Assembly (NCBI GenBank): GCA_021794095.1
Contig: JAJYRN010000008.1
Span: forward strand, 98,535-141,551
Direction: 5' to 3'
Length of the DNA: 43,017 bases
Origin: Acidobacteriota bacterium
GTDB lineage: Bacteria > Acidobacteriota > Holophagae > Holophagales > Holophagaceae
The notes below the pieces were generated by a model. It did no database searches and had not been told where the DNA came from. It saw nothing but the letters and a program-made list of their open reading frames with translations. This document shows, piece after piece, positions 1-42,560 of this stretch. Each line of letters starts with the position of its first letter. Position 1 is the first letter of the stretch. Made by a program: the position numbers and the translations under genes.

Positions 1-308
1 GTCCCCTTCGTCTGGCATCAGGCGACCGGGGCGGGCTCTGCCCGGCGCGGGCGCGGGGAGCGCGAGGGGGACGCAGAGCGGCCGCAGGCCGCGGGCGGTC
101 CCCTTCGTCTGGCATCAGGCGACCGGGACGGGCTCTGCCCGGCGCGGGCGCGGGGAGCGCGAGGGGGACGCAGAGCGGCCGCAGGCCGCGGGCGGTCCCC
201 TTCGTCTGGCATCAGGCGACCGGGACGGGCTCTGCCCGGCGCGGGCGCGGGGAGCGCGAGGGGGACGCAGAGCGGCCGCAGGCCGCGGGCGGTCCCCCTC
301 GTCTAGAA
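1..308. repeat. 97-bp tandem repeat array downstream of glgP
   Basis: Three complete, nearly identical 97-bp units start at 1, 98 and 195, and a partial fourth starts at 292. The array abuts the glgP stop codon at 309-311 and may continue beyond the window edge. Each unit holds GC-rich inverted repeats: a GAGGGGGAC arm, a GGCCGCAGGCC palindrome and a GGTCCCC arm, so RNA from it would fold into strong hairpins. The end of each unit (ATCAGGC) resembles the last codon plus stop of glgP as read on the plus strand. No protein is expected; reading frames through it are compositional artefacts. Confidence 0.9.
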
Positions 309-2432
309 TCAGGCCGGTGGCATCTGGCAGGAGGCCGCCACAGCCGCCGGAAGATAGCACTGGTTGACGTAGTCCATCACCATGCGATCCGCATTGAACC
401 GCCACGCCAGGGTGCGGATGGAGCGCTTGACGCGCTGGAGCCAGGCCCGGGGCACCCCGGCGGCATCCCGGTCGTAGTAGAGGGGCACGATCTCCTCCTC
501 CAGCAGACGGAAGAGCGCATCGGCATCCCGCCGGTCCTGGATGGAGAAGTCCGCATGGGTTTCGCCATCCCCGATGGCGAAACCGTTCTGGCCGTCGTAG
601 GCCTCGGCCCACCAGCCGTCCAGGACGGAGATATGCAGGGCACCATTCATCGCGGCCTTCATGCCGCTGGTGCCGCAGGCCTCCAGGGGCCGCTGGGGAT
701 TGTTCAGCCAGGCGTCCACACCCTGGTAGAGGTTGCGCCCCACGTGGATGTTGTAGTTCTCCACGAAGGCCATGTGGCCGCGGAAGCGCGGATCCTCGAT
801 GAGCTGATTCACCCGCTGGATGAGGCCCTTGCCCAGCTGGTCCGCCGGATGGGCACGGCCCGCGAAGATGAGGTTCACGGGGCGGGACGGATGGTTCACC
901 AGCGCCGCCAGGCGCTCGGGATCCGAGAAGAGAAGATCCGGCCGCTTGTAGGGCACGAAGCGGCGGGCAAACCCGATGGTGAGGGCATCCGGGTCCAGCG
1001 GCGGCGGATCCAGCGGCCGCAACCCCTGGTGGGCGCGGGTCTCGGCCACGTGATCCCGCACGAAGCGGATGAGCCGCGCCTTGAGCACCTGCTTGATCTC
1101 CCAGATCTCGGCCGCATCCACGGATTCGAGGCGCGTCCAGAGATCAGGCCGCGCCATGCTATCCATCCAGTTGACCCCGAGCCGTTCCACATACAGCTGG
1201 TTCAGCTCCGAAGCCAACCAGGTGGGCGCATGCACACCATTGGTGATATGGCCGATGGGCACCTCGTGCTCCTTGCGCTCGGGCCAGAGGCGGTTCCACA
1301 TGGCGCGAGAGACGGTGCCATGAAGGGCCGATACGCCGTTGGCCCGCAGGGAATGGCGCAGGGCCAGCACCGTGGGCATGAAGGCATCGTGGGGGTTGCT
1401 GGCGTCGAGCTGACCGAGGCCCAGCACATCGCGCACCGGCAGCTTCAGGCCCTCGGCCAGGGGCCGCAGGTGTTCCTCCGCCAGGTCCGCCGGAAAGCGG
1501 TCGTGGCCCGCATCCACCGGCGTGTGGGTGGTGAAGACCGTGGCCGCCGCCGCCGCCCGGAGGGCGGCATGGGGATCCTGGCCATCCTCCTGCACCCGGT
1601 GGCGGGCCCGTTCCAGCACCGCGAAGGCGGTGTGCCCCTCGTTCAGGTGGTACACGCTGGGGGTGATACCCAGGGCCCGCAGGGCCCGGGCACCGCCGAC
1701 GCCGAGCAGCAGCTCCTGCTGGATGCGGATGCGCTGATCCCCCCCGTAGAGCCGGGCGGCAAGGGCCTGATCCGCCTCGCTGTTCTGGGAATCCCGGGTG
1801 TCCAGGAGGATCAGCTTGACCCGCCCCACGCAGGCTTCCAGCACCCGGGCCCAGATCAGGCGCCCCGGCATTTCCACCGACACCCGCACGGGCTCACCCT
1901 GGGGATCCCGCGCCAGGCGCAGCGGCAGATCCTTCAGGTCGAAGGGCTCCAGCACATCCTGCTGCCAGTGGGAGCCGTCCAGCACTTGGCTCACATAGCC
2001 CTGGTGGTAGAGCAGGCCCACCCCCACCATGGGCACGCCCAGGTTGGAAGCGCCCTTCAGGTGGTCACCGGCGAGGATGCCCAGGCCGCCGGAATAGATC
2101 GGCAGGGATTCGTGCAGGCCGAACTCCGCGCAGAAGTAGGCCACCGGACGGGAACCCAGGCCACCCGCATGGAACAGGCTCCAGGTGGTGACGGGGTGGA
2201 CGTACTCGTCGAGCTGGCGCAGGGCCCGGTCAATGCGGGCGGGAATGTCCACCTCGGTGGCCCGCTTCTCCATCTGGCGGGTCTCGATCTGGCGGAGCAC
2301 CGCCAGGGGATTCCGGTGCACCCGGTTGTAGAGGTCAATGTCCAGGTCGCGGAAGATGGACCGCACTTCGGGGCGCCAGGTCCACCACAGGTTCTGGGTG
2401 AGGCGTTCAAGCTTCTGCCGGAGGGTTTCCAT
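309..2432 (-). CDS. glgP: Alpha-glucan (glycogen) phosphorylase, GT35
   Basis: The product is a cytoplasmic PLP-dependent enzyme that releases glucose 1-phosphate from the ends of glycogen or maltodextrin. It has 707 residues, the shorter bacterial form of family GT35. The PLP-binding region is clear (CGTSGMKAAMNG, lysine near residue 592), followed by the typical WWAEAYDGQNGFAIGDG segment. The N-terminus (METLRQKLERLTQNLWWTW) is a standard start for this subfamily. It is the last gene of a three-gene minus-strand operon, 24 bp after glgB, and its stop codon runs directly into a tandem repeat array. Together with the debranching enzyme and GlgB it makes a glycogen turnover module. No glycogen synthase or ADP-glucose pyrophosphorylase gene is in the window. 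Confidence 0.95.
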   Translation of the reverse strand: METLRQKLERLTQNLWWTWRPEVRSIFRDLDIDLYNRVHRNPLAVLRQIETRQMEKRATEVDIPARIDRALRQLDEYVHPVTTWSLFHAGGLGSRPVAYFCAEFGLHESLPIYSGGLGILAGDHLKGASNLGVPMVGVGLLYHQGYVSQVLDGSHWQQDVLEPFDLKDLPLRLARDPQGEPVRVSVEMPGRLIWARVLEACVGRVKLILLDTRDSQNSEADQALAARLYGGDQRIRIQQELLLGVGGARALRALGITPSVYHLNEGHTAFAVLERARHRVQEDGQDPHAALRAAAAATVFTTHTPVDAGHDRFPADLAEEHLRPLAEGLKLPVRDVLGLGQLDASNPHDAFMPTVLALRHSLRANGVSALHGTVSRAMWNRLWPERKEHEVPIGHITNGVHAPTWLASELNQLYVERLGVNWMDSMARPDLWTRLESVDAAEIWEIKQVLKARLIRFVRDHVAETRAHQGLRPLDPPPLDPDALTIGFARRFVPYKRPDLLFSDPERLAALVNHPSRPVNLIFAGRAHPADQLGKGLIQRVNQLIEDPRFRGHMAFVENYNIHVGRNLYQGVDAWLNNPQRPLEACGTSGMKAAMNGALHISVLDGWWAEAYDGQNGFAIGDGETHADFSIQDRRDADALFRLLEEEIVPLYYDRDAAGVPRAWLQRVKRSIRTLAWRFNADRMVMDYVNQCYLPAAVAASCQMPPA

Positions 2433-2456: not shown

Positions 2457-4361
2457 TTATGGCAGGCTGTCGGCCGGCCGGAGGACGATGACGCCCAGCG
2501 GCGGGAGGGTGAGGGTCAGGGCGTGGTCGAACCCGTGGCTGGGCCCCGCGTCCGGTACCAGACGCCCCGGATTGCCAAAGCCCTGGCCACCGTAGAGGGG
2601 CGCATCGGTGTTGAGGATTTCCTCACAGGGCCCCTCCCAGGGCACACCGACTCGGTAGCCGTGATGGACCAGGGCGGTGGCGTTGAGCACCACCAGCAGG
2701 GTCTCGCCCGAATCGGGATCCCGGCGGAGCAAGGCCAGCACATTGTTGTGGCGGTCCTGGCAATCCACCCAGGTCCAGCCACCCGCGTCGCAATCGCCCC
2801 GGTAGAGGGCCGGGTGCGCCCGGTAGAGGGCGTTGAGATCCCGCAGGAGGTCGTAGATGCCGTGGTGTCCCGGCTGATCGAGCAGTTCCCAATCCAGGGC
2901 GGTCTCGTGGTTCCATTCCCGTTCCTGGCCCAGTTCCACGCCCATGAAGAGCAGCTTCTTGCCGGGATGCGCGAACTGCCAGGCCAGCAGAAGGCGCAGG
3001 TTCGCCAGGCGCTCCCAGGCACTCCCCGGCATGCGGCCCAGGAGGCTCCGCTTGCCATGCACCACCTCATCGTGGGAGAGCGGCAGGACATAGTTCTCCG
3101 CATGGTGGTAGAGCAGGCTGAAGGTCAGCTCATCGTGGTGGTAGCGGCGGTGGGGCATGGTCCGCGCAAGGAAGCGCAGCGTGTCGTGCATCCAGCCCAT
3201 ATCCCACTTGAAGCCAAACCCCAGGCCGCCGACATGGGTGGGCCGGGACACCATGGGCCAGGCGGTGGATTCCTCCGCCAGGGTGAAGGTATCCGGGTGC
3301 AAGGCGTACACCGTCTCGTTGAGGCGGCGGAGGAAGGACACCGCATCCAGGTTCTCCCGGCCGCCATAGCGGTTGGGGATCCACTGGCCTGGTTCGCGGC
3401 TGTAGTCCAGGTAGAGCATGGAGGCCACCGCGTCCACCCGCAGCCCGTCCACATGGCACTGCTCCAGCCAGAAGAGGGCGTTGGCGATGAGGATGTTCTG
3501 CACCTCGCGCCGGCCGTAGTTGTAGATCAGGGTGCCCCAGTCCCTGTGGCGTCCCTGCCGGGGATCCGCGTGCTCGTACAGGTGCGTGCCATCGAAGAAG
3601 CCCAGCCCGTGGGCATCCTCCGGGAAGTGGGCGGGAACCCAGTCCAGCACCACGCCGATGCCCGCCTGGTGGAAGGCATCCACGAAGGCCTTGAAGTCCT
3701 CCGGCGAGCCGTAGCGGCTGGTGGGCGCGAAGAGCCCGAGGGGCTGGTAGCCCCAGGAACCGTAATAGGGATGCTCGCTCACGGGCAGCAGCTCGATGTG
3801 TGTGAAGCCCAGGTAGCGGACGTAGGGAATGAGCTGCTCCGCGATCTCCCCGTAGGTCATGAAGGTGCCATCGGGCCGGCGCCTCCAGGAACCGAGATGC
3901 ACCTCGTAGGCGCTGAAGGGCGCGCGGTGGAGGGGTTCTCGGCCCCGGGCCTCCATCCAGGCCGCATCGCCCCAGGCGTAGTCCCCCAGGCCATGGACGA
4001 TCGAAGCGGTGCCCGGCGACGGCTCGCAGCGGAAGGCGAAGGGATCCGCCTTGAGGGGCAGCAGGGCGCCATCAGGGCCGTGCAGCTCGAACTTGTACAG
4101 CTCGCCGGGGCCTACCCCCGGAACGAAGCCCTCCCACACCCCCGAATCGCTCCCGGTGAGGGGATTCCGCCGGCCATCCCAGGCATTGAAGGAGCCCACC
4201 ACGCTGGCACTCCGGGCGTTGGGGGCCCATACGGCGAAGGCCGTGCCTGGAACGCCCTCGACCACACAGGGGTGTGCCCCGAGCTTCTCGAACAGGCGCC
4301 GGTGGGTGCCCTCCCGCAACAGGTAGTGATCGAGGGGGCCCATGCGGCGGCGGCGGGTCAT
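2457..4361 (-). CDS. glgB: 1,4-alpha-glucan branching enzyme, GH13
   Basis: The 634-residue product makes alpha-1,6 branches in glycogen. A CBM48-like domain (about residues 35-125, [20 protein letters not shown]) precedes the GH13 barrel. Visible catalytic regions are DWVPAHF (near 240), [16 protein letters not shown] with nucleophile D310, AEEST with acid/base E363, and [10 protein letters not shown] with the third acidic residue. The start chosen is the ATG at 4361, which overlaps the upstream stop codon in a 4-base ATGA. The reading frame stays open further upstream, but that part overlaps the debranching gene and resembles no GlgB N-terminus. The overlap indicates translational coupling with the debranching enzyme. 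Confidence 0.95.
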
Positions 4362-7300
4362 GACCGGACGCCCAGTTTCAGCCACACCCGCAGGGCCTCG
4401 GTGACGCTCCAGGCCTGGGCGTCGCAGCCCCGCTGGGCGTGGGGCGCATCGCCCTCCAGCAGCTCCGGGAGCTGGCCCAGGCAGCCCTCCGCCAGGGGGC
4501 CCTCCAGACTGCCCAGCAGGGCCCGGGCCGCCGCCACGGCCACCGGCGCCTGGTCCCAGGCCGCGGCGAGCGCCTCGCAGAACGTGGGCAGCAGCCATAC
4601 CCAGGCGGTGCCGTTGTGGTAGGCCGGCTTGCGCCGAGTGTCCTCATCGCCCTCGTAGTGGCCCCAGTAGGGACGCTGCGGATCATTGAGCAGGCGGCCG
4701 TCTGCGCCGTGGATCGCCAGGGGCGCCGCCACGGGCAGGGGCGCCAGACTGCGCAGGGCGCCGGGCACCAGCAGGTGCCGCTGGGCCGCGGCCACCAGGC
4801 TGCGGGCCCGATCGCCCCGCACCAGGCCCAGGCTCACGAGGAACAGCGCGTTGGGACGCAGATGATCCAGCGGAACAGCCTCCGCCGCGGTTGTCCCGGG
4901 CGGAGCGGCGAGGACATCGGCGAACCAGCCCTGGGCCGGCAGCCAGTAGCGCTCCAGGGCCGTCTCGGCCCGCCGGGCCAGGGCCTCCCAGGGCGCCCGG
5001 GCCGCTGGCGCCTCCACCCGCGCGAGCTGGCGCAACAGGCGGATCCACAGGGCCTGGAGCTCGACGGGGTAGCCCTCCCGCGGCGTGCCGGCGGGATGGT
5101 TCGTGTCCATCCAGGTGAAGTGGGCGGGGCTCCACACCAGGGCAGATTCGGGATCCACGCGCACGCCGTTGGGGGCACCCGCCAGCAGGCCCTGCGCCAG
5201 GCTGCGCAGCACCTCCAGAAGGGTGCGGTCCCCGGCCTGGGCCCCGTACACCGAGCCGCCCAGGGCCTCCGCGGTCTCCTCCAGGGCCAGGGCGTACCAG
5301 AGCGGGGCATCCGACGTATCCCGGTCGCCCGCATCCCCGGCCTGGAGGCGGTTGGGCAGGGTGCCCTGATGTTCCAGGGCGCCGTAGGTGCGAAGCAGCG
5401 CCAGGGCCTCCGCGCCCCAGCCCGCCGCCACCAGGCCCCGGGCGGCGATCAGCGAATCCCGGCCCCAGTCCAGGAACCAGGGATAGCCGGCGATCACCGT
5501 GAGCCCCGCGCCCCGGCGGACGAGGAAGGCCCCGGCGGCGCGGGCCAGCTGGCCGCCGAAAGCATCCATGGCCGCAGGTGGCGCAGGTGCAGGCGGCGGG
5601 ACCGACCCGGCAGCTTCCTCCACCTCCACCTGGAGGACCGCCTCACCGCCAGGCGCGAGGGGCAGTTCGAACCAGCCCGGGCTCCAGGCATCGCCCCGGT
5701 CCCGCTGGCCCCGGCAGCCTTCCAGGGGGTGGGGAATTCCCAGCGACCATTCGGGCTCCGGATGGTAGGTGCCGGTTTCGCTCCAGGCCCGGAGGCGGCG
5801 GTCCGCCGCAGGGTGGAAACGGAAACCCGCAACCCCGGGCAGCGGCTCCGCGCTGGCCCGGAAATGGGCGTCCAGGCCCGCATCGCAGACGGTCTCCCCG
5901 TGGAAGCTCCGGTCCTCCAGATCCAGGCGCACCGTCACCGCCACGCGCGCCTCCCGCGGCAGGCCTCCGTCCCCGCGCCGGAAGCGCAGGGACAGCGCAT
6001 TGCGCCCGGGCCGCATCTCCGCCTCCAGGTCCAGCAGCACGCTGCGGCCGTCGCCGGCATGGGCCCGGAAGCGCCACTGGGCGGGCGGCCCGGGTGTGAA
6101 CGCGGCGAGGTTGGCGCCCTCCAGGGCGGTGAGGAACCCATCCGCGATGACCCAGGCGCGCAGGCGCTTCACCAGCACGTGGCGATCGCACGGTAGGTCC
6201 GGATGGAGGTTGGCGCCCAGCAGGCAGTCGTACTTGGAAGCGATGGCGCCCAGATCCGCCGCCAGCCGCGCCATGCCGCCCCGGCCGTTGGTGAGCAGGG
6301 CCATGCCCTGCCATGAACGAGGGGGGACCGCCTGCTCGCCGTTGGCTCGCGATGTCCCCCCTCGTGCACCCCCACGTGGTGTCCCGGCCAAGCCGGGACA
6401 CCACGTCTGGTCGGCAACGTCCTGCCAGCGGGGCTCAGCGGCCAGGTAGCGCAGGGTGGTTTGGAGCGGCCCGCCGCACCGGCCGAAGGGATCGAGGATC
6501 AGCCGGGCCTCTCCGGGGGGCGCAGCCCCGGGGGGCAGAGCCGCCACGTGGTGCCCACCGGCCCGCAGCGACCGCAGGCACAGATCCGGCGCCCCGGGCC
6601 GCTCAAGAGTGAGGGCGAAGGGCCCGTCCTCGCGCACCAGCACCCAGTGGCCCGGCGGCACCGGCAGGATGCGGCGGACATCGCCGGCTTCCCACACCAC
6701 CACCGCGGGATAGACCGCCGGATCCGTGGCCGCAGCCAGGGCCGCCTCCAAATCTTCCGCGGCGCGACCAGGATCCAGGCGAGGCAGGGCCGCCAGGAAC
6801 CCCGCTGGATCGCGGTCCACCCGCTCGGCCAGCGCACGCCAGTCGCAGGGGCCCAGGGCCTCCACGGGCACCACCTCACCCAGGCACTGGAAGGCCCAGG
6901 CGGCCTGGGCCCGCCGCATGCGGTAGGGCTCGCCGGACAGCCCCGCCGGACGGGCCTGAGCCGCCAGACAGTGGGCGGCGCCGGGTTGTAGCTGGAGGTG
7001 GCGGACCTCGCCTTGGCGCGTGTGCTGGGGCGGATCGCCCAGCAGATCCACCCGGGGGTCACCCAGCGCCTTCCAGGCCGCTTCCGGAAGCGCCAGGGCC
7101 CCGGGCCGGAGGGGATCCAGGTTCACCAGCACCAGGCAATGGTCCAGCCCCTCCGCGGAATGACGGGCCAGGGCCAGCACCGGCGAGTCGTCGGCGCTCA
7201 GGCGCTCCACCTGGGCGCCATCAAAGAAACAGGGATGGTCCGCCAGCAGGCGGTTGAGGGTAGCCAGCTCGGCCACCAGGTTCGGCTCGGCGCCCCAGGC

Positions 7301-8710
7301 CAGGCCGCTGGCCCCATGCACATCCAGCTTCTCGGTGGCCAGCCACTCCACCCCGGCGGTGAAACCGAAGGCACCGGTCTGGCTGGCGAGGGCGCAGAGG
7401 CGGTTGCGCAGCAGGGACCAGGCGGAACCCCGCTCGGCCAGGCGGGCGTTGTCGTGGGTCTCGCTGTAGTGGACGAGGGGCCCGAGGCGCTGGGCCTGGC
7501 GGAAGCAGTGATCCAGGTAGCCCGAGACGGCGCGGGGCTCGTGGTTCTGGAACAACTCCGAATAGGCCCACTGCATGCCACCTTCACCCAGCAGACACTC
7601 CGTCGCCTCCCAGGCCCCACCCAGGCCCTCCAGCAGGAAGAGGCAATCGGGGAATTCCCGCCGCACCCGGGCGCCCAGGTACTGCCAGACCGGCAGGGGC
7701 ACCATGTAGCCCGCATCGCACCGGAAGCCATCCACGCCCCGGCGGCACCAGGTGAGCAGGGCCTCGCCCACCTCCTCCCAGAACGCCGGCGCCCCGCCGT
7801 CCAGTTCGACGAGATCCGCCCAGGTGTTGCCCCAGGCGCCGGGGCTGTGGAAGCTCCCATCGGGATCGCGGCGGAACCATTCCGGGTGGGTTTCCATCAG
7901 GCGGGATTCCCAGCCCGTGTGGTTCACCACGATATCCAGCAGGAGGCTGCCGCCCCGGGCGTGGACGCCATCCGCTAACTCCCGGAACTGATCCACGGCG
8001 GTGGTGCGCCGGTCGAATTCGACGAGAGCCGGGTCAATGGCGGTGAGGTCGAGCTGGGCGTAGGGGCTGCCGAAGCGCCCCATGCGGGCGAAGGTGGTGG
8101 GCACGGGGCCCACGGGCAGCAGGTGGAGGAACCGGACGCCGAGCGAATCGAACAGATGGGGCAGGTGCCGGGTCAGATCCCGGAGGGTGCCCGAAGGCGG
8201 GACGACCGTCATGCCCTGCCGGTCGAGCTCAGCCCAGGCGGCCTCCTGCCGGGCATTCCGGGTGCTGCGCAGGCTCCGGGCGGGACCGAACTGGCGCGGG
8301 AAGGCGCAGTAGATCAGATTGGCGGAGCGCAGCCGGTCCGGCAGCACACTGAGCCCCAGATCCTCGCCCAGGGGCCAGTGCTGGAGGCCCTCGGGATCCA
8401 CCGCATAGGCCTTGGCCCGGAAAGGGCCGGGCTCCGTGAGCACCAGATCCAGGCTCCAGCCAGCCGCCCCCGGCCGCAGGGGGAGGTCGCGCCAGGCGGC
8501 CCCGGCGAAGGTGGCTTCTTCGCCGCGCAGGAGGCCTGCCTGGGCCAGGATCTCCTCCCGGGCGCGGACGCCGCGGGTGAGGTTGGTGCGCAGAAAAGCC
8601 CGCCAGCCCGGCTGGCCCGGGGCGGGATGGGCCAGGTCCACCCGCAGGCAATCGCCCACATAGCGCACGAGGCGGGCGCCGGGCTCGGGACGCATGGCGG
8701 GTCGGAGCAC
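4358..8710 (-). CDS. GH13-GH133 glycogen debranching enzyme, AGL-like two-domain architecture
   Basis: The 1450-residue product joins two carbohydrate-active domains. The N-terminal GH13 part has DIVVNHT (259-265), [11 protein letters not shown] with candidate nucleophile D332, FLLEGLGG with candidate acid/base E361, and ETHDN with H419-D420, so all four GH13 regions look intact. The C-terminal part, about 1045-1445, matches the amylo-alpha-1,6-glucosidase family ([20 protein letters not shown], then a [13 protein letters not shown] segment). This order is that of the eukaryotic debranching enzyme AGL (glucanotransferase plus 1,6-glucosidase); dual activity here is inferred. The GTG start at 8710 has a GGAGG Shine-Dalgarno; an ATG at 8695 is an alternative. 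Around residues 767-800 an in-frame palindromic repeat insertion interrupts the linker. It is the first gene of the glgB-glgP operon. Confidence 0.88.
6313..6412. repeat. In-frame double-palindrome insertion inside the debranching enzyme gene
   Basis: Two perfect inverted repeats lie next to each other within coding sequence. One has 12-bp arms at 6317-6328 and 6354-6365 (ACGAGGGGGGAC / GTCCCCCCTCGT), the same core found in the intergenic arrays. The other has 15-bp arms at 6374-6388 and 6392-6406 (ACGTGGTGTCCCGGC and its complement) with a 3-nt loop. Together they encode about 34 low-complexity Gly/Arg/Pro-rich residues between RWQDVA and [11 protein letters not shown]. Reading frame is preserved. 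Confidence 0.8.
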
Positions 8711-8787: not shown

Positions 8788-9747
8788 ATGTCCACCACAG
8801 TTCCTGCCTCTCCCGCCCTCGATGCGCTGCTCGCCGAATGCCGCAAGGTGATCGTCGGGCAGCCCCTCCTGCTCAATCGCCTGCTCGTGGCCCTGCTCTG
8901 CCGGGGCCACGTGCTGCTGGAGGGCCTGCCGGGCCTGGCGAAGACGCGCACGATCAAGACCCTCGCAGCGGCCAGCCACACCAGCTTCCGCCGCATCCAG
9001 TTCACGCCGGACCTGCTGCCGAGCGACGTGGTGGGCACCCTCGTCTTCGATCCCCGGGCCCTCACCTTCACGCCCAAGAAAGGGCCCGTATTCGCGAACC
9101 TCCTGCTGGCCGACGAGATCAACCGCGCGCCCTCGAAGGTGCAGGCCGCCCTGCTGGAGGCCATGGAGGAGCGCCAGGTCACCCTGGGCGAGGAGAGCTT
9201 CCGCCTGCCGGATCCCTTCCTCGTGCTGGCCACACAGAACCCCCTGGAGCAGGAGGGCACCTTCCCCCTGCCCGAGGCCCAGATGGACCGTTTCCTCTTC
9301 AAGCTGCGGGTGGACTACCCCAAGCAGGAGGAGGAGGTCGAGGTGCTGCGCCGGGCCCACCTCAGCGGCGATGAGGTGCGACCCGTGGTGGACGCGGCCA
9401 TGCTGCTGGCCGCCGGCGCCCAGGCCGAGCAGGTACGCCTGGATGACGCCATCCGCACCTACATCGTGCGCCTGGTGCAGGCCACCCGCCCCGGCCACGG
9501 CAAACCCTGGAAGGGCAAGGAGCAGCTCCGCTGCGGCGCCAGTCCCCGGGCCTCGCTCGCGCTCCAGGCCTCCTCACGGGCCCTGGCCTTCCTCCAGGGC
9601 CGCGACCACGTGCTGCCCCAGGATGTGGTGGACCTGGCGCCGGACGTGCTGCGCCACCGCCTCCTGCTCACCTTCGAGGGCGAAGCCGACGGCGCCACCA
9701 CCGACCAGGCCATCGCCCTGCTGCTCCAGGCCGTCCCCCGGCCCTGA
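8788..9747 (+). CDS. MoxR-family AAA+ ATPase
   Basis: The 319-residue product is a MoxR/RavA-type AAA+ ATPase, a family often acting as a chaperone in maturation of secreted or metal-dependent complexes. Walker A is GLPGLAKT, Walker B is LLADEINRAPSKVQAALLEAMEE, sensor 1 is ATQNP, and the C-terminal lid carries SPRASLAL. The ATG at 8788 fits the family N-terminus; a TTG at 8740 in the same frame is possible but adds 16 unconserved residues. MoxR genes usually sit beside DUF58 and von Willebrand A genes. Here none follows; a tandem repeat array starts 41 bp after the stop, so its partner is elsewhere or was lost. It is transcribed divergently from the glycogen operon across 77 bp. Confidence 0.92.
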   Translation: MSTTVPASPALDALLAECRKVIVGQPLLLNRLLVALLCRGHVLLEGLPGLAKTRTIKTLAAASHTSFRRIQFTPDLLPSDVVGTLVFDPRALTFTPKKGPVFANLLLADEINRAPSKVQAALLEAMEERQVTLGEESFRLPDPFLVLATQNPLEQEGTFPLPEAQMDRFLFKLRVDYPKQEEEVEVLRRAHLSGDEVRPVVDAAMLLAAGAQAEQVRLDDAIRTYIVRLVQATRPGHGKPWKGKEQLRCGASPRASLALQASSRALAFLQGRDHVLPQDVVDLAPDVLRHRLLLTFEGEADGATTDQAIALLLQAVPRP

Positions 9748-9760: not shown

Positions 9761-9788
9761 GCATCTGGTTCCAGGAACTCCCGGGCCA

Positions 9789-10373
9789 GGGGGGACGCAG
9801 AGGCGAAGCCAGGCGTCCCAACGCGGGACAGGAGGGGCAGGAGAGGCAGGCTCCGCCTGCCCCTCCTGCGGGGGTCCCAGGGGGGACGCAGAGGCGAAGC
9901 CGGGCGTCCCAACGCGGGACAGGAGGGGCAGGAGAGGCAGGCTCCGCCTGCCCCTCCTGCGGGGGTCCCAGGGGGGACGCAGAGGCGAAGCCGGGCGGTC
10001 CAACGCGGGACAGGAGGGGCAGGAGAGGCAGGCTCCGCCTGCCCCTCCTGCGGGGGTCCCAGGGGGGACGCAGAGGCGAAGCCGGGCGTCCCAACGCGGG
10101 ACAGGAGGGGCAGGAGAGGCAGGCTCCGCCTGCCCCTCCTGCGGGGGTCCCAGGGGGGACGCAGAGGCGAAGCCAGGCGTCCCAACGCGGGGACAGGAGG
10201 GGCAGGAGAGGCAGGCTCCGCCTGCCCCTCCTGCGGGGGTCCCAGGGGGGACGCAGAGGCGAAGCCAGGCGTCCCAACGCGGGATAGGAGGGGCAGGAGA
10301 GGCAGGCTCCGCCTGCCCCTCCTGCGGGGGTCCCAGGGGGGACGCAGAGGCGAAGCCGGGCGGTCCCCCCTGG
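9789..10373. repeat. 91-bp tandem repeat array between moxR and the ABC permease
   Basis: Units start at 9789, 9880, 9971, 10062, 10153, 10245 and 10336, giving six full copies plus a partial seventh. Period is 91 bp, once 92 through an extra G. Copies are almost identical; differences include AGGCGTCC, GGGCGTCC or GGGCGGTCC in the middle. Every unit contains a perfect 12-bp inverted repeat (AGGAGGGGCAGG / CCTGCCCCTCCT) enclosing GGCAGG-CTCCG-CCTGCC. The array ends with GGGCGGTCCCCCC, matching the end of the glgP-side units. Long reading frames across it on both strands merely translate the repeat. Confidence 0.93.
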
Positions 10374-14564: not shown

Positions 14565-14611
14565 CGCCAGAAGGCCCGCCGTCCCGGCGGAATTCCGCCG
14601 AATATCCGGGC

Positions 14612-14820
14612 GGTCCCCCTCGTTGAAATCAGACGCGGAGGACGGGCTTGGCCCGGCCCCCGCGTGGGGAGCACGAGGGGGACGCAGAGGGCGCGCAGCG
14701 TCCGGGCGGTCCCCCTCGTCGGGAGAAGACGCGGGGGCTGGGCTTGGCCCGGCCCCCCCGTGGGGAGCACGAGGGGGACGCAGAGGGCGCGCAGCGTCCG
14801 GGCGGTCCCCCTCGTCGGGA
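14612..14820. repeat. 96-bp tandem repeat array between response regulator and EamA gene
   Basis: The GGTCCCCCTCG element recurs at 14612, 14708 and 14804, giving two full 96-bp units and a partial third that stops 6 bp before the response-regulator stop codon. Each unit holds a perfect inverted repeat: CGAGGGGGAC and GTCCCCCTCG around a GCAGAGGGCGCGCAGCGTCCGGGC-type loop. The second half (GGGCTTGGCCCGGCCCCC) is also self-complementary. It shares its core with the arrays at 1-308 and 9789-10373. Confidence 0.9.
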
Positions 14821-14826
14821 TTAACC

Positions 14827-15198
14827 TCAGCCCGCAAGGGTCTCCTGGACCTTGGCCACCAGGGCCCCGGCATCCAGGGGCTTGAGCAGGAAGCCCGACA
14901 GGCCCTGCTGCTGCATCCGCCGGAGGGCTTCATCATCTCGGTGAGCCGACAGGACCAGGATGGGCAGGCCCTGCAGGGCCGAATCCTCCCGGCAGGCCCG
15001 CACCAGGCTCTCGCCCGGGCAGTTGGGCATCAGGAGGTCCAACAAAAGAAGATCCACTGGGGCCTCTCGCAGCACCGTCAGCACCCGGAAGAGCGATTCG
15101 GGCTCCACCTCGACCACCTCGTGCCCCCGGGCACGTAGCGCCGCAGCCGCGAACACGCGGGCCAAGCGGCTGTCATCCACGATGGCGATCCGGGCCAT
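14827..15198 (-). CDS. Single-domain response regulator (CheY-like receiver)
   Basis: The 123-residue product is a stand-alone receiver. Acidic pocket D8/D9 (IVDDS), phosphoacceptor D54 (LLLDLLMP), switch residue S84 (LVLSAH) and K106 (FLLKPLDA) are all present. There is no output domain, so it acts by protein contact. The start ATG at 15198 is preceded by GGGAGAG and gives the canonical N-terminus MARIAIVDDS. It lies 29 bp after the PBP4 gene in a minus-strand operon headed by a GAF-HD-GYP protein; no histidine kinase is adjacent. Confidence 0.93.
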   Translation of the reverse strand: MARIAIVDDSRLARVFAAAALRARGHEVVEVEPESLFRVLTVLREAPVDLLLLDLLMPNCPGESLVRACREDSALQGLPILVLSAHRDDEALRRMQQQGLSGFLLKPLDAGALVAKVQETLAG

Positions 15199-35679: not shown

Positions 35680-36333
35680 ATGCGCTTCGTATTCGAGCAG
35701 CTCCGTCTCGGCGGCGACCGCAACTTCGCCTACCTGCTGGGGGACCGGGAGGCCGGCGAGGGGCTGCTGGTGGACCCCTCCTTCGATCCGGCGGCGGCCG
35801 TGGCCCGGGCGCGGGCCCAGGGGCTGCGGATCACGGCCATCCTGAACACCCATGGCCACGCCGACCACACCAACGGCAATGCCGGAGCCCAGACCCTCAC
35901 GGGCGCCCCGGTGCTGGGCGGTCCGGGCCATCCCGGACCCGTGGACCGGACCCTGAAGGATGGCGACCGCATTCCCTTCGGCGGATTCGCGGTGAAGGTC
36001 TGGCAGGTGCCCGGCCACTGCCCGGATCACCTGGCCTTCCTCGTGGAGCACCAGGCCGCGGGAATCACCGGCGATCTGCTCTTCGTGGGCAAGGTGGGCG
36101 GCACGATGAGCGAGGCGGACGCCCGCACCGAATGGGACAGCCTCCAGCGCCTCCTGCGGGAGTGGCCGCCGGAGACGACGGTGTGGCCCGGCCACGACTA
36201 CGGGGCCCGGCCCAGCTCGACGATGGCCTGGGAGCGCGTCGGCAACCCGTTCCTCCAGTGCCCGGATGTCGCGGCCTTCATCGCCCTCAAGGCCGAGTGG
36301 CCCACCTTCAAGGCCCGACACGGGCTGCGGTGA
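35680..36333 (+). CDS. MBL-fold metallohydrolase (glyoxalase II-like)
   Basis: The 217-residue product is a small metallo-beta-lactamase-fold hydrolase. Metal ligands are THGHADHTNG (HxHxDH), the later His in PGHCPDHL, the Asp in ITGDLLFVGKVG and the His in WPGHDYG. It resembles glyoxalase II-type thioester hydrolases or persulfide dioxygenases; substrate unknown. The ATG at 35680 has GGAGG five bases upstream, and the open frame before it lies inside the kinase gene. A degenerate copy of the repeat core (ACGAGGGGGGAC, 36339-36350) sits 5 bp after the stop. Confidence 0.9.
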   Translation: MRFVFEQLRLGGDRNFAYLLGDREAGEGLLVDPSFDPAAAVARARAQGLRITAILNTHGHADHTNGNAGAQTLTGAPVLGGPGHPGPVDRTLKDGDRIPFGGFAVKVWQVPGHCPDHLAFLVEHQAAGITGDLLFVGKVGGTMSEADARTEWDSLQRLLREWPPETTVWPGHDYGARPSSTMAWERVGNPFLQCPDVAAFIALKAEWPTFKARHGLR

Positions 36334-36338
36334 TGTGA

Positions 36339-36373
36339 AACGAGGGGGGACCGACCGGAAAGGTCGAGCCGAG
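36339..36373. repeat. Solitary copy of the repeat core after the MBL-hydrolase stop
   Basis: ACGAGGGGGGACCGACCGG occurs 5 bp after the stop codon, followed by a small hairpin CGACC-GGAAA-GGTCG. It matches the first arm of the array units in the same orientation relative to the preceding gene, but it is not amplified. Confidence 0.55.
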
Positions 36374-38014: not shown

Positions 38015-39248
38015 GCACTGGCAGACCGAAGCGGGAACCCTGGACCCGGATGCGCTCCTGGCCCACCCGCCCCGGGTTCCCTTCACCCTGCTCCACGGCG
38101 CGGGGCGCTTCGTGGTGTGGGCGGAGGAGCCCCTAGCCCACCTGGGGGTGGAGGACCTGGCGGACCTCCACTGGGAACGCATCGGAGCGGCCCCGCCCCT
38201 GATGCCGGACCTCCTGGGCTTCGTGGCCTACGAGTACGGCTACCGGCTGGATGCCAGCCTCCCATTGCCCCCAGCCGTGGCGGATCCGATCCCGGACCTC
38301 CGCTTCACCCTCCATGCCCGCGTCCTCGTGGCGGACCGGGCCACGGGGCGCCTGCACCGGGCCGTCCGGACCCTCCCTCCCGAGGTCGAGACGCGGCCTC
38401 CGGCCCTGGGACAGGGCTCCTTCCGGACCCGCAAGGCGGGGGACACGGACACCCCGGAGGCCTATGCCGCCAAGGTGGCGCGGATCCGGGAGGAGATCGC
38501 CCGGGGCAACGTGTACCAGGTCAATCTCTCGCGGCAGGAAGCCTGGGCGATCCAGGGCGATCTGGCGGAACTGGCCCGCAGGCTCCACGCGGCCAACCCC
38601 GCGCCCTATTCGGCCTTAGTGGCGGACCCGGCCTTCGTCCTGCTGTCCAGCAGCCCCGAATCCTTTCTCCGCTGGGGCCAGGGCCTGATCCGCAGCCGGC
38701 CCATCAAGGGCACCGCCCCCCGCGCCGCGGACCCCGCGCAGGATGAGGCCCTGGCCCGGGAGCTGCGATCGAGCGCCAAGAACCGCGCCGAACTGGCCAT
38801 GATCGTGGACCTGCTGCGCAACGATCTGGCGCGGCTCTGCTCGCCCGTCGTGCGGGTCGAAGGCTTCCCGATCCTCGAATCCTACGCGAACGTCCACCAC
38901 CTGGTGGCGGACATCGTGGGCACCCTCGCGGGGCCGCTCCGCCTGGCATCCCTGCTCGCGGCCCTCTTCCCGGGCGGATCCATCACCGGCTGCCCCAAGC
39001 TCGCGGCCATGGGCTTGATCCGCGCCCTGGAGCCCGCGCCCCGCCGCATCTACTGCGGTGCGCTCGGCTGGATGACCCACGACCTGGCCGCCGGGGAATG
39101 GGCGCTGCCCATCCGCACCGCCTGGGCGGCGGACAGCCTGCTGCGGTTCGGCGTGGGCGGCGGCGTGGTGTGGGACTCGGATCCCCGCGAGGAGTACGAA
39201 GAGACCCTTCACAAGGGCAGGAGCCTGGTCCAATGCTTGAACTCGTGA
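37992..39248 (+). CDS. pabB: Aminodeoxychorismate synthase component I
   Basis: The 418-residue chorismate-binding enzyme adds ammonia to chorismate to give 4-amino-4-deoxychorismate for folate. The PIKGT motif carries the lysine that distinguishes PabB from anthranilate synthase (PIAGT). Other family motifs are NVYQVNLSRQ, KNRAELAMIVDLLRNDLARLC, FPGGSITGCPK and FGVGGGVVWDSDPREEYEET. The N-terminus is short compared with E. coli PabB but complete enough to include LGFVAYEYGYRLD. It overlaps pabA by 23 bp and pabC by 16 bp, making a tight three-gene module. Confidence 0.95.
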   Translation: MPSRWVTEHWQTEAGTLDPDALLAHPPRVPFTLLHGAGRFVVWAEEPLAHLGVEDLADLHWERIGAAPPLMPDLLGFVAYEYGYRLDASLPLPPAVADPIPDLRFTLHARVLVADRATGRLHRAVRTLPPEVETRPPALGQGSFRTRKAGDTDTPEAYAAKVARIREEIARGNVYQVNLSRQEAWAIQGDLAELARRLHAANPAPYSALVADPAFVLLSSSPESFLRWGQGLIRSRPIKGTAPRAADPAQDEALARELRSSAKNRAELAMIVDLLRNDLARLCSPVVRVEGFPILESYANVHHLVADIVGTLAGPLRLASLLAALFPGGSITGCPKLAAMGLIRALEPAPRRIYCGALGWMTHDLAAGEWALPIRTAWAADSLLRFGVGGGVVWDSDPREEYEETLHKGRSLVQCLNS

Positions 39249-40003
39249 CGGCAAGGGCCACCGACATCGCCGATTCGGACGCCCGGCACGGCTGGGGCTG
39301 TTTCGAGACCCTCCGCGTGGAGAAGGGCCGCCCCCGCTGGCTCGAACGCCATCTGGCCCGGCTGGCCGGCGGGTGCGCCTTCCTGGGCCTCGAGCCCCCG
39401 CCGCCTCCCGCATCCGTTCGGGCCTTCCTGGGCGCCCTCCCCCTCCTCGGGCCTGACCTCACGTCTGGCTTCGAAGGCACCCTCCGCTTGATCGCCGTGG
39501 ATGGCTGCCTGCTCGTGCGCCTCGATGGGCGGCCGGCCCCTCCCGCCGAGCCCCTCCGGGCCTGCCTCTCCACCCGCGTGACCCGCTGCTCCGCCTCGCC
39601 GCTCAACCGCTTCAAGACCCTCAGCTACCTTGAGAATCGGCTGCTCCAGGTCGAAGCCGGGGAGCGGCGGGCCTTCGAGGCCCTGGCCCTCAACGAATCG
39701 GGCCGGTTGACGGATGGCGGTCGCACCACCTTGGTGCTCCGGAAGGGTGGACGCTGGCTCACCCCGCCCGCGGAGGACGGCGCGCTTCCAGGCATCGCCC
39801 GGGGACTGCTGCTGGAGGCTGGGCTCGCGGAAGAGGCTCGCCTCCGGCCCGAGGATCTCCCAAAGGCCGAGGGAGCCCTGCTGGTGAACGCCCTGCGGGG
39901 CCTGATGGTGCTCAGTGACGTGGCAGGCTGGTCCCGCTGGACGGGGACTCCCGCAGGCCTCGGCGGCCTGCAACGGGTGCTGAACGGGCCACCTCGGGCG
40001 TGA
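39233..40003 (+). CDS. pabC: Class IV aminotransferase, probable aminodeoxychorismate lyase
   Basis: The 256-residue PLP enzyme probably converts aminodeoxychorismate to p-aminobenzoate and pyruvate, completing the steps begun by pabA and pabB. The start (RHGWGCFETLRVEKGRPRWLERHLARL) is typical, and the PLP lysine is K128 in NRFKTLSYLENRL. The usual Glu in the GxxxE segment is replaced: LNESGRLTDGGRTTLVL has D161. It is somewhat divergent from well-studied PabC, so a related class IV enzyme is possible; context favours PabC. It overlaps pabB by 16 bp. Confidence 0.82.
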   Translation: MLELVTARATDIADSDARHGWGCFETLRVEKGRPRWLERHLARLAGGCAFLGLEPPPPPASVRAFLGALPLLGPDLTSGFEGTLRLIAVDGCLLVRLDGRPAPPAEPLRACLSTRVTRCSASPLNRFKTLSYLENRLLQVEAGERRAFEALALNESGRLTDGGRTTLVLRKGGRWLTPPAEDGALPGIARGLLLEAGLAEEARLRPEDLPKAEGALLVNALRGLMVLSDVAGWSRWTGTPAGLGGLQRVLNGPPRA

Positions 40004-40010
40004 TCCGCTC

Positions 40011-40268
40011 CTTCAGCCTTCCTTTTCGAGCATGCCGAAGCGGGCCAGGGGGGGTCCCGCTCCGCGAGCCCTTGGCGAGCGGGAGGGCCATCCAGGCGGA
40101 TGGCCCGTTCGCGGGCTGCCAGGTGGATCCTGAGCCCGCTTCAGCCTTCCTTTTCGAGCATGCCGAAGCGGGCCAGGGGGGGTCCCGCTCCGCGAGCCCT
40201 TGGCGAGCGGGAGGGCCATCCAGGCGGATGGCCCGTTCGCGGGCTGCCAGGTGGATCCTGAGCCTGCT
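40011..40268. repeat. 128-bp tandem repeat including the 3' end of the helicase gene
   Basis: The sequence CTTCAGCCTTCCTTTTCGAG recurs at 40011, 40139 and 40267, a 128-bp period. The third occurrence is the real end of the helicase gene; the two others are copies of its last 11-12 codons (LARFGMLEKEG plus stop) joined to about 90 bp of spacer. The spacer contains perfect inverted repeats such as GGGCCATCC/GGATGGCCC and CCCGCT/AGCGGG. Copies are nearly identical. It fills the gap between the convergent pabC and helicase genes. Confidence 0.93.
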
Positions 40269-42560
40269 TCAGCCTTCCTTTTCGAGCATGCCGAAGCGGG
40301 CCAGGATCCGCTTCTCGCCGGCTTCCGCGAAGCGCACGGTGTAGGTTAGGCCGTCGCCACTGCCGGTGCTGGCGACGATGAGGCCGCGGCCGAACCGGGG
40401 GCTGCGGACCCGCGTGCCGCTGGGCCAGGCGCCCGCCGCGGCGCGGGGTTCGGGCTCCGGAGCGGCGGGAGCCAGCCCGGATTCCGGTTCGGGCTGGGCC
40501 CGCACCCGGTCGAAGAACCCACGGATGCGCTGGAGTTCTGAAGCCACCGCGGCGCCGCCGGAGGCGCGGGTGAAGGAACTGCCGGGCCGGACGCCCTCGC
40601 CCGCCTGGTACAGCTCGGTGCCCCAGCGGATGGGCGTCTGCAGGGCCTCGGGCGGGATCTCCCGCAGGAAGCGGCTGGGCATGCCCAGCATCTCCGTGCC
40701 CATGATGCGGCGGCGGCGGGCGGCAGTGAGCGTGAGGTGGCGCTGGGCCCGGGTGATGGCGACGTAGAAGAGGCGCCGTTCCTCCTCCAGGCCCTCGGGG
40801 GTTTCGCGGGCCTGGCGATTGGGGAAGACCTCCTCTTCCATGCCCACCACGAAGACATGCGGGAACTCCAGCCCCTTGGCGCAATGGATGGTCATGAGGC
40901 TGAGCTGGGCGCTCTCCTCCACCTGGTCGGCGTCGGCGGCGAGGGTGATGCGGTCCAGGAATTCGGAGAGGCGCAGGCCCAGGGATTCCGATTCCGCCGC
41001 GGCGCTGAGGAACTCCTCCAGGTTGCGGATGCGCCCTTCAGCTTCCAGGGTGCCCTCGTCCTCCAGGCTCTGCAGGTAGCCGCTCTCCTGGAGCACCCAC
41101 CGCACGAGGCCGGCGAGCCCCAGGGCGTCGCGTTCGCGGGCCGCCCGGTGGAACAAGTCCAGGAACTTCCCCATCTCCCGCTGGGCGCGGCCCTTCAGCT
41201 CGCCGCGGCGGAGGAGTTCGGCCAGACCCTCCAGGGGCGTACCGCCCTCGGGGATGGCCGTCTCGATCTTCCCCAGCGTCGTGGGCCCCACGCCGCGGCT
41301 GGGGGCGTTCACACAGCGGCGGAAGCTCACCAGATCGAAGGGGTTCGACACCAGCCGCAGGTAGGAGATGAGATCCTTCACCTCCTGGCGCTCGTAGAAC
41401 TTCACGCCGCCCACCAGCCGGTAGGGCAGGTTCACGGCCCGCAGGGCCTCTTCCAGCTGCCGGGACTGCCAGTTGGCCCGGTAGAGCACGGCCACCTTGG
41501 CGTCCGGCTCGCTGTGCCGCAGGTCCAGGATGCGCTGCACCACCCACTCGGCCTCCAGGCGGCCCTCCTCCGCCAGCTTGAAGGCGATGGCCTCGCCATG
41601 GCCCAGGTCACTCCAGAGCGTCTTGCCCAGGCGCTGGGAGTTGTTGGCGATGACGGAGCTGGCCGCGTCGAGGATGCGCTGGGTGCTGCGGTAGTTCTGC
41701 TCCAGCTTGATCTGCACCGCCTCCGGGAAATCCTTCTGAAAGTCCAGGATGTTGCGGATGTCGGCGCCTCTCCACCCATAGATGGACTGATCTTCATCGC
41801 CCACCACGCACAGGTTGTGGTGGCGCCGGGCGAGGTGCTGCACCAGGAGGTACTGGGCGCGGTTCGTATCCTGGTACTCGTCCACCAGGATGTAGCGGAA
41901 GCGGTCGCCGTAGGCGGTCTGGAGCGCCGGCTCACGGAAGAGGCGCTCGGTGTGGAGCAGCAGATCATCGAAGTCGCAGGCCCGGTGGTTCCGCAGCCCC
42001 TTCTGGTAGAGGTCGTAGGCATCGAGCACCTTGCGGGTCCAGGGATCCAGCGCCTCTTCGCGGGCCTCCTCCGGCAGGAGGCAGCGGTTCTTGAAATCGG
42101 AGATCAGCTCCAGCACCTTCCGGGGGTGGAACTGCTTCTCGGGCAGGTGCAGTTCCGCCAGCACCTGCTTCATCAGGCTCTTCTGGTCCGAGGGATCGAA
42201 GATGACGAAGTCGCGGCCCACGGGCGTGCGGTCGCCCTCCCGGCGCAGGATCCGCGTGCAGAAGCTGTGGAAAGTGCTCACCCAGAGCTGGGCCAGGGGC
42301 ACGGAGACCAGCCGCTGCACCCGCTCCCGCATCTCCTCGGCGGCCTTGTTGGTGAAGGTCATGGCCAGGATGGCGCCGGGGTGGACCCCCTCCTCCTCGA
42401 TGAGCCAGGCGATGCGGCGGGTGATGACCGTGGTCTTGCCTGACCCCGCGCCCGCCAGGATGAGCAGGGGGCCGTGGGCATGGCGGACCGCCTCCTGCTG
42501 GGGGGCGTTCAGGTTCCGCAGGAGCGGGTGGTCGGAAGGATCAGGATCGGGACCGGGCAT
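40269..42560 (-). CDS. pcrA: UvrD/PcrA-type superfamily 1A DNA helicase
   Basis: The 763-residue product is an ATP-dependent 3'-5' helicase for nucleotide excision/mismatch repair and replication-fork clearing. Motifs run in order: Q motif LNAPQQEAV, motif I AGAGSGKTT, motif II VDEYQDTN, GDEDQSIYGWRGAD, LEQNYRS, then VSLMTIHCAKGLEF-type and EEERRLFYVAITRA motifs. The C-terminal tail ending in VRSPRFGRGLIVASTGSGDGLTYTVRF is the PcrA RNA-polymerase-interacting Tudor-like domain. The last codons form part of a tandem repeat that duplicates the gene's 3' end twice downstream. The start ATG is at 42560. Confidence 0.95.
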   Translation of the reverse strand: MPGPDPDPSDHPLLRNLNAPQQEAVRHAHGPLLILAGAGSGKTTVITRRIAWLIEEEGVHPGAILAMTFTNKAAEEMRERVQRLVSVPLAQLWVSTFHSFCTRILRREGDRTPVGRDFVIFDPSDQKSLMKQVLAELHLPEKQFHPRKVLELISDFKNRCLLPEEAREEALDPWTRKVLDAYDLYQKGLRNHRACDFDDLLLHTERLFREPALQTAYGDRFRYILVDEYQDTNRAQYLLVQHLARRHHNLCVVGDEDQSIYGWRGADIRNILDFQKDFPEAVQIKLEQNYRSTQRILDAASSVIANNSQRLGKTLWSDLGHGEAIAFKLAEEGRLEAEWVVQRILDLRHSEPDAKVAVLYRANWQSRQLEEALRAVNLPYRLVGGVKFYERQEVKDLISYLRLVSNPFDLVSFRRCVNAPSRGVGPTTLGKIETAIPEGGTPLEGLAELLRRGELKGRAQREMGKFLDLFHRAARERDALGLAGLVRWVLQESGYLQSLEDEGTLEAEGRIRNLEEFLSAAAESESLGLRLSEFLDRITLAADADQVEESAQLSLMTIHCAKGLEFPHVFVVGMEEEVFPNRQARETPEGLEEERRLFYVAITRAQRHLTLTAARRRRIMGTEMLGMPSRFLREIPPEALQTPIRWGTELYQAGEGVRPGSSFTRASGGAAVASELQRIRGFFDRVRAQPEPESGLAPAAPEPEPRAAAGAWPSGTRVRSPRFGRGLIVASTGSGDGLTYTVRFAEAGEKRILARFGMLEKEG

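Follow-up and report, generated by a model that had tools for sequence, protein, structure and literature searches.

In-frame and stop-adjacent copies of a two-hairpin palindromic repeat in the Geothrix group of Acidobacteriota

Introduction

How does a DNA repeat that folds into two strong hairpins come to lie inside an open reading frame, and how does such a repeat spread? This question is raised by a glycogen debranching enzyme gene on a 43,017-nucleotide stretch of an acidobacterial genome (contig JAJYRN010000008.1), which is called the window throughout this paper. A preliminary description of this DNA had proposed that a palindromic repeat, which elsewhere forms arrays behind genes, is inserted in frame in the debranching gene, that the element can move or be copied and that it is tolerated as a protein linker like the RPE1-type palindromes of Rickettsia genes. 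RPE are described in a 2024 review as palindromic repeats of about 150 bp that lie in frame in unrelated genes, where they are tolerated, and that also occur outside genes; the same review considers such events conceivable in other prokaryotes (PMC10969869). Before that, a 2013 survey had recorded REPs within genes in several species (PMC3733652).

The repeat unit in the debranching gene

Both the 12-bp arms and the perfect 15-bp arms of the palindromes could be located inside the debranching gene, and the minus-strand reading frame 4358-8710 runs through both hairpins, so that it is kept open as had been claimed. The features of this locus are as follows.

4358-8710, minus strand: glycogen debranching enzyme gene, 1450 aa, with alpha-amylase, GDE_N and GDE_C domains (Pfam); host of the insert
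6311-6410, plus strand, read in frame on the minus strand: one two-hairpin repeat unit, net +99 nt compared with orthologues, 121.1 bits
6317-6365, plus strand: hairpin A, arms 6317-6328 and 6354-6365, with a small inner hairpin
6374-6406, plus strand: hairpin B, arms 6374-6388 and 6392-6406, loop of 3

The insert is rich in Gly, Arg and Pro and is positioned directly ahead of the GDE_N domain. For the 100-nt stretch (6311-6410), a folding energy of -66.7 kcal/mol was calculated (z = -7.0), which was equaled by 0 of 200 shuffles, and two strong hairpins were found on both strands (z about -7, 0/200 shuffles). Structure prediction of residues 560-1110 of the enzyme gave a mean pLDDT of 66 and the insert is part of a stretch below 50; since this stretch also covers conserved residues, the prediction says nothing firm on the linker. 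The suggested tolerance of the insert as a protein linker appears plausible as far as the open reading frame shows.

Orthologous genes in related genomes

Between query residues 748 and 815, the window gene comprises 204 nt (68 residues), whereas all 25 aligned congeners besides the nearest relative (genome G027) carry 105 or 108 nt (35-36 residues) at this position. The difference between the window gene and the 105-nt orthologues amounts to 99 nt (33 codons). An in-frame addition had thus been recognized correctly, but its net size is 33 residues instead of the roughly 34 originally given. Since the segment is missing in these 25 close relatives, the possibility that it constitutes a conserved protein segment was ruled out. 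One genome from outside the genus (L047) contains an unalignable stretch of 183 nt at the same residues.

The nearest relative has 129 nt at this position and has retained the left-end part of the same element. Judged from the alignment, this remnant appears to result from one shared insertion that was followed by a 75-nt in-frame deletion, and insertion of the window copy into the debranching gene would predate the separation of the window's species from G027. In addition, the debranching gene of G027 carries a second copy of the element near query residue 977, where its length is 222 nt as compared with 123 nt in the window gene and in all congeners shown. This second copy also adds 99 nt in frame, but it is read in a different frame from the window copy.

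In-frame inserts in other genes

The expectation that the same palindromes occur inside other genes was borne out, and comparison with orthologues revealed in-frame inserts in five further genes. Inserts of 33 aa are present in G027 in a glycosyltransferase (one orthologue compared, without insert), in HypF (contiguous in all three other genomes with a match) and in the HATPase region of a histidine kinase (contiguous in six others with a match). The leucyl-tRNA synthetase (LeuRS) of genome G015 carries an insert of 32 aa and is contiguous in 15 of 15 other genomes searched, and a GluQ-type synthetase of three MAGs has an insert of about 30 aa, with contiguous orthologues in 16 of 16 genomes searched. 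A net insert of exactly 99 nt was found in five cases; the LeuRS and GluQ-type inserts do not have 33 residues. For a copy in an IcmF gene (L235, bog_363 MAG), the joined flanks are contiguous in 16 of 16 genomes and pairwise alignment puts the gap elsewhere; this copy is probably an in-frame insert as well. When a copy in a PD-(D/E)XK protein (L277) was analyzed in the same number of genomes, contiguous matches were obtained in 9 of 16.

The in-gene copies are read in sense and antisense, and their frame and orientation vary from gene to gene. Five of the six frames of the 99-nt consensus unit are open and the sixth contains one stop, which according to our own reading would be missing in the ATC variant of the unit. 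One of the open sense frames would still hit the TGA created at the left junction.

Two other genes that adjoin element copies should be mentioned. In Geothrix fuzhouensis SG12 (L271:3589-5217), a called gene encodes both an HhH-GPD repair domain and a domain of periplasmic binding proteins, which are connected in frame by an element copy; this is a possible element-made gene fusion or a gene-calling artefact. In the window genome (L095:2493-2571, G000:C13), the region following the conserved domains of a DnaX-like clamp loader gene contains a degraded copy, and a related copy occupies the same place in G027.

Size and spread of the family

Searching the window genome (G000) with a 121-nt query yielded 107 matches, and a good part of them arose because one arm of a hairpin matched the opposite arm in reverse. 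The copies number in the dozens, most of them are about 80-96% identical, and the window repeat is therefore not a product of chance. When stretches around same-strand matches were counted, we obtained 43 places, including that of the window, which are occupied by a copy or an array. Arrays of the first subtype have a period of 99. A second subtype (period 96-97) contributes, by our own count, 18 places outside the first set (60 matches in all). The following related features were found in the window.

1-314, minus strand: family array with a period of 97; adjoins the stop codon of gene 309-2432 (minus strand)
9786-10367, minus strand: family array with a period of 91 and 6.4 copies; follows gene 8848-9747 at a distance of 38 bases
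14605-14820, minus strand: family array with a period of 96; adjoins the stop codon of gene 14827-15198 (minus strand)
36340-36351, plus strand: left-end remnant (half element, exact 12-mer), just behind the stop of gene 35680-36333
40011-40305, minus strand: array, period 128, behind gene 39233-40003, weak match to the family model (21.4 bits, E 0.023)

The 12-mer had been regarded as the core of such arrays. It recurs once in the window, in the half element at 36340 (at most one mismatch), and the arrays have variant cores. These arrays do match the covariance model of the family (40011-40305 weakly), so that the relationship held and the shared exact core did not. In the array at 9786-10367, tandem copies show 97% matches to each other and are open in several frames; its copy number may vary between strains.

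To define the spread of the family, we employed three kinds of searches. A DNA search (E <= 0.01) matched 33 of 36 congeners and 0 of 23 genomes outside the genus. A covariance model was built from 61 copies (65 references were made and four were dropped as palindromes matching their own reverse), and at E <= 0.001 it matched 46 of 47 genus genomes, the window genome included. It gave at least 80 matches in the window genome, at least 87 in G027 and 27 in the next genome; since 87 first-look candidates were scored per genome, the first two counts are lower bounds. Finally, a pattern scan of named species genomes returned at least 102 stretches, and the 80 listed come from Geothrix, Holophagaceae or 'Acidobacteria bacterium'. 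The family is genus-wide in this acidobacterial genus (Geothrix group). An Rfam search of five loci with copies (E <= 1) gave no family match on the element and one sub-threshold match elsewhere, and a known Rfam RNA was thus ruled out at these loci.

Empty sites and insertion target

When 28 places of the window genome were sought in G027, 23 were found, of which 4 were empty (L062, L066, L083, L096) and 19 carried a copy or a remnant. Conversely, 26 G027 places were sought in the window genome; the left flank identified 23 of them, and a copy or remnant was present at 4. This test leans to empty sites, since its places were picked from those G027 places without a fetched counterpart. The flanks of 14 of the 43 places in the window genome matched fetched element stretches of G027, two of them on one side only (L088, which matched the element itself, is left out). 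By our own reading, about 10 of the 19 shared places are shortened in G027, which indicates that much of the family is old. Some of the intergenic presence/absence pairs can be explained by loss as well as by gain. Nevertheless, empty orthologous sites support the earlier suggestion that the element can move or be copied, and it does enter genes.

The cleanest empty pairs (L083/L189, L150/L319, L136/L325) show CTG or CTGA once when empty and on both sides of the insert when filled, and no clear terminal inverted repeat was seen by eye; a MITE would have both terminal inverted repeats and a target-site duplication. L143, L140 and L157 are less clean empty sites. For several inserts, the site is CTGG or CCG-like, and the right junctions differ by a few bases. 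A single target-site rule was not obtained from all empty sites, since the flanks are often rearranged.

A candidate mechanism and the search for the mobilizing enzyme

Lineage-specific presence and absence of the unit, length increments of 99 nt, a bias in site and orientation and the covariation of the hairpins between copies (see below) are direct observations. We consider it likely that they reflect a non-autonomous mobile palindromic repeat, which is copied by a candidate trans-acting enzyme recognizing hairpins. The unit of 96-99 bp, with hairpin A followed by hairpin B, would have no gene of its own, and the enzyme would recognize the hairpins and copy the unit to new places. New copies would enter CTG(A)-like sites, where the first base of the unit, an A, would remake TGA, so that insertion at a gene's own stop codon would be silent. 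Because the unit has 33 codons and five of six frames are open, copies inside genes would survive as in-frame spacers.

As a special case of this explanation, the repeat could be a miniature element derived from an IS200/IS605-type (Y1) sequence like the REPs, the transposase of which was lost from most of the genus or is encoded in unassembled DNA. The two hairpins near the ends, the fixed orientation, the short CTG(A) motif common to the left flank and the right end, and the lack of clear terminal inverted repeats fit this origin, and there may be a resemblance to IS200/IS605 cleavage sites. However, the Y1 transposase profile (PF01797) had 0 matches in the window genome, which is 99.25% complete, as compared with matches in 5 of 14 control genomes. 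There was no match in G027 either, and 42 of 47 congeners are without one. At the 10 Y1 loci fetched (of 15 matches), no element copy was present. On these grounds, a resident Y1 transposase/RAYT was rejected as mobilizer, and we regard a Y1 derivation as possible but rather doubtful. An IS110-type enzyme (PF02371) was rejected as obvious partner, since the genome's one match has no element copy in its 3.2-kb locus. As a separate observation, the genomes G019 and G067 (loci L169, L170, L173-L177) carry multi-copy Y1 (IS200-type) transposase genes with 7 and 5 matches, respectively.

Position relative to stop codons

At 23 of the 43 places in the window genome, the repeat starts exactly one base past the stop of a same-strand gene, genes being called by a simple, codon-based procedure trained on the window. 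For G027, this was the case in 22 of 46 rows, which derive from 40 fetched stretches (part of its copies) plus L098, and for other congeners in 12 of the 18 best loci (one duplicate left out). Among the stretches listed from named species genomes, the first hairpin of an array is 8-10 nt away from a stop codon in 37 of 76 cases; 14 of these hairpins have no stop within 150 nt and 13 are inside a called gene, several of the latter at gene ends or in weakly scored genes (5 near contig ends were dropped, G027's own contigs are included).

The element has a preferred orientation and its left edge adjoins (C/T)TGA. A stop codon was found within -1 to +2 of the left edge at 25 of 41 places outside genes, compared with 31% expected for any noncoding (C/T)TGA (p = 7e-5). 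Thus, the target motif accounts for part of the stop-codon pattern, but not for all of it.

We also compared the stop codons of the window genome and G027. The stop codon differs in 6 of 84 element-free gene-end pairs (2 of the 84 involve TGA) and in 2 of 23 pairs with the element in both genomes. For pairs with the element on one side only, it differs in 7 of 14 (p = 0.0003 vs 6/84); these 14, in which the filled side starts at most 2 bases from the stop and the other side looks empty, were hand-picked from 32 flagged one-sided pairs. In five of the seven differing pairs, the filled allele has TGA and the empty allele TAA or TAG, and two show the reverse. These data are only suggestive of stop codons being remade by insertion, since the 14 pairs were selected by ourselves and the neighboring DNA is often rearranged.

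A more far-reaching scenario would be that the element targets the stop codon itself and restores it, mostly as TGA in the same codon position, irrespective of which stop was originally there. Insertion would then be silent where it costs nothing, the 33-codon length would make misdirected copies survivable as protein inserts, and the mobilizing enzyme would represent a new hairpin-directed system. This scenario strikes us as improbable.

Pairing of the hairpins between copies and in place

The stems comprise 12 pairs (hairpin A) and 15 pairs (hairpin B). Between the 61 copies, 91.7% of the cells are paired, compared with a shuffle mean of 85.7 and with 37-50% when the partners were slid; the slid control leans towards structure because the structure was drawn from the consensus. 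Changes on both sides were seen in 17 of 32 pairs (shuffle mean 9.2), and for either pairing measure 0 of 500 shuffles reached the observed value. Thus, the hairpins covary between copies.

A different picture was obtained for orthologous copy pairs, 17 of 18 of which were comparable. Here, one-sided changes result in at least one unpaired allele in 43 cases and preserve pairing in 11, two-sided changes kept pairing in 8 cases and not in 10, and the stems differ by 8.3% compared with 5.1% for the loops. The 8 pairing-preserving two-sided changes could be due to some selection or to whole units having been replaced. Since stems do not change more slowly than loops in place and broken pairs outnumber kept ones, pairing is conserved among copy lineages rather than clearly guarded at each place.

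These data bear on the alternative that the repeat is a functional RNA element of 3'-ends (mRNA stabilizer, modulator of translation or of Rho), which is selected behind stop codons and has entered genes by accident. The position exactly one base behind the stop at about half of the places in two genomes and in 12 of the 18 best loci elsewhere would suit such a role, as would the strong structure (fold, covariation) and the eight two-sided changes by which pairing is preserved at orthologous places. Moreover, E. coli REPs within 15 nt of a stop codon are reported to lower translation (PMC12306157). On the other hand, pair-breaking changes in place far exceed pair-keeping ones, stems change no more slowly than loops and many places are empty in the sister genome. 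In the copies inspected, the hairpins are not followed by a T run and are therefore unlike intrinsic terminators. Covariation between copies combined with free decay in place fits better to a mobile element, for which hairpins are important during copying, than to a locally maintained RNA, and we consider the RNA alternative decidedly improbable.

An ordinary low-complexity or GC-rich protein linker that forms hairpins by coincidence would agree with the composition of the insert and its position just before GDE_N, but there are dozens of similar DNA copies, the majority of which lie outside called genes, and different genes use different frames and orientations. This leaves the linker reading practically no probability, and it was rejected.

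Comparison with known repeat systems

In its behavior, the mobile repeat proposed here resembles the RPE, since palindromic inserts lie in frame in unrelated genes and are absent from orthologues. The likeness to RPE1-type elements that had been put forward is one of behavior, and there are differences: the present element belongs to another phylum, measures 96-99 bp, has two hairpins and forms tandem arrays behind stop codons.

REPs are described as short palindromes, mostly 3' of genes and sometimes inside them; the CGTC types have no dedicated transposase and include some RPE, and GTAG types can supply a stop codon (PMC3733652). The present element shares the palindromes, their location and, with the CGTC types, the lack of a recognizable transposase. 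In contrast, it combines two dissimilar hairpins in a constant arrangement with a period of 96-99 bp, and its genome has no RAYT. Its stems of 12 and 15 bp exceed the 8-9 bp stem (loop of 4-5) by which CGTC-tagged REPs are defined in this source (PMC3733652). No GTAG tag is present at either end of the element consensus. CGTC occurs at columns 94-97, near the right end, so that a distant link to the CGTC repeats is possible; its CGT is paired inside stem B, whereas the CGTC tag of REPs should be unpaired.

MIRU are described as apparently mobile 40-100-bp units in tandem arrays that sit at codon junctions with the neighboring gene still working; start codons are given as their insertion sites, and a coupled ORF is attributed to them (PMC12548453, PMC2734929). 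Unit size, tandem arrays, apparent mobility and codon-junction placement are similar in the present element. According to these descriptions, it is set apart by the stop codon of the upstream gene, which marks its position, and by its strong hairpins. By analogy, we infer that the element works like RPE, REPs or MIRUs, without sharing the REP/RAYT features tested (Y1/RAYT, GTAG, short stem).

In the titles and abstract starts of literature on Geothrix, Holophagae and acidobacterial repeats, no description of this repeat was found. The addition of protein segments by palindromic repeats in the Rickettsia style is now also seen in an acidobacterial genus (Geothrix group), for instance in leucyl-tRNA synthetase and HypF. 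With close genomes, empty sites and named Geothrix strains at hand, the rules of insertion and the fate of the added protein segments become testable.

Element copies can themselves be interrupted. At one locus of the window genome (L091, G000:C26:17700-22700), hairpin A of a copy that follows a stop codon (reverse strand, 2110-2510) is interrupted by a sequence of about 250-300 bp with 17-bp terminal inverted repeats (GAGCTGGAACGGAATAA), which is apparently another miniature element.
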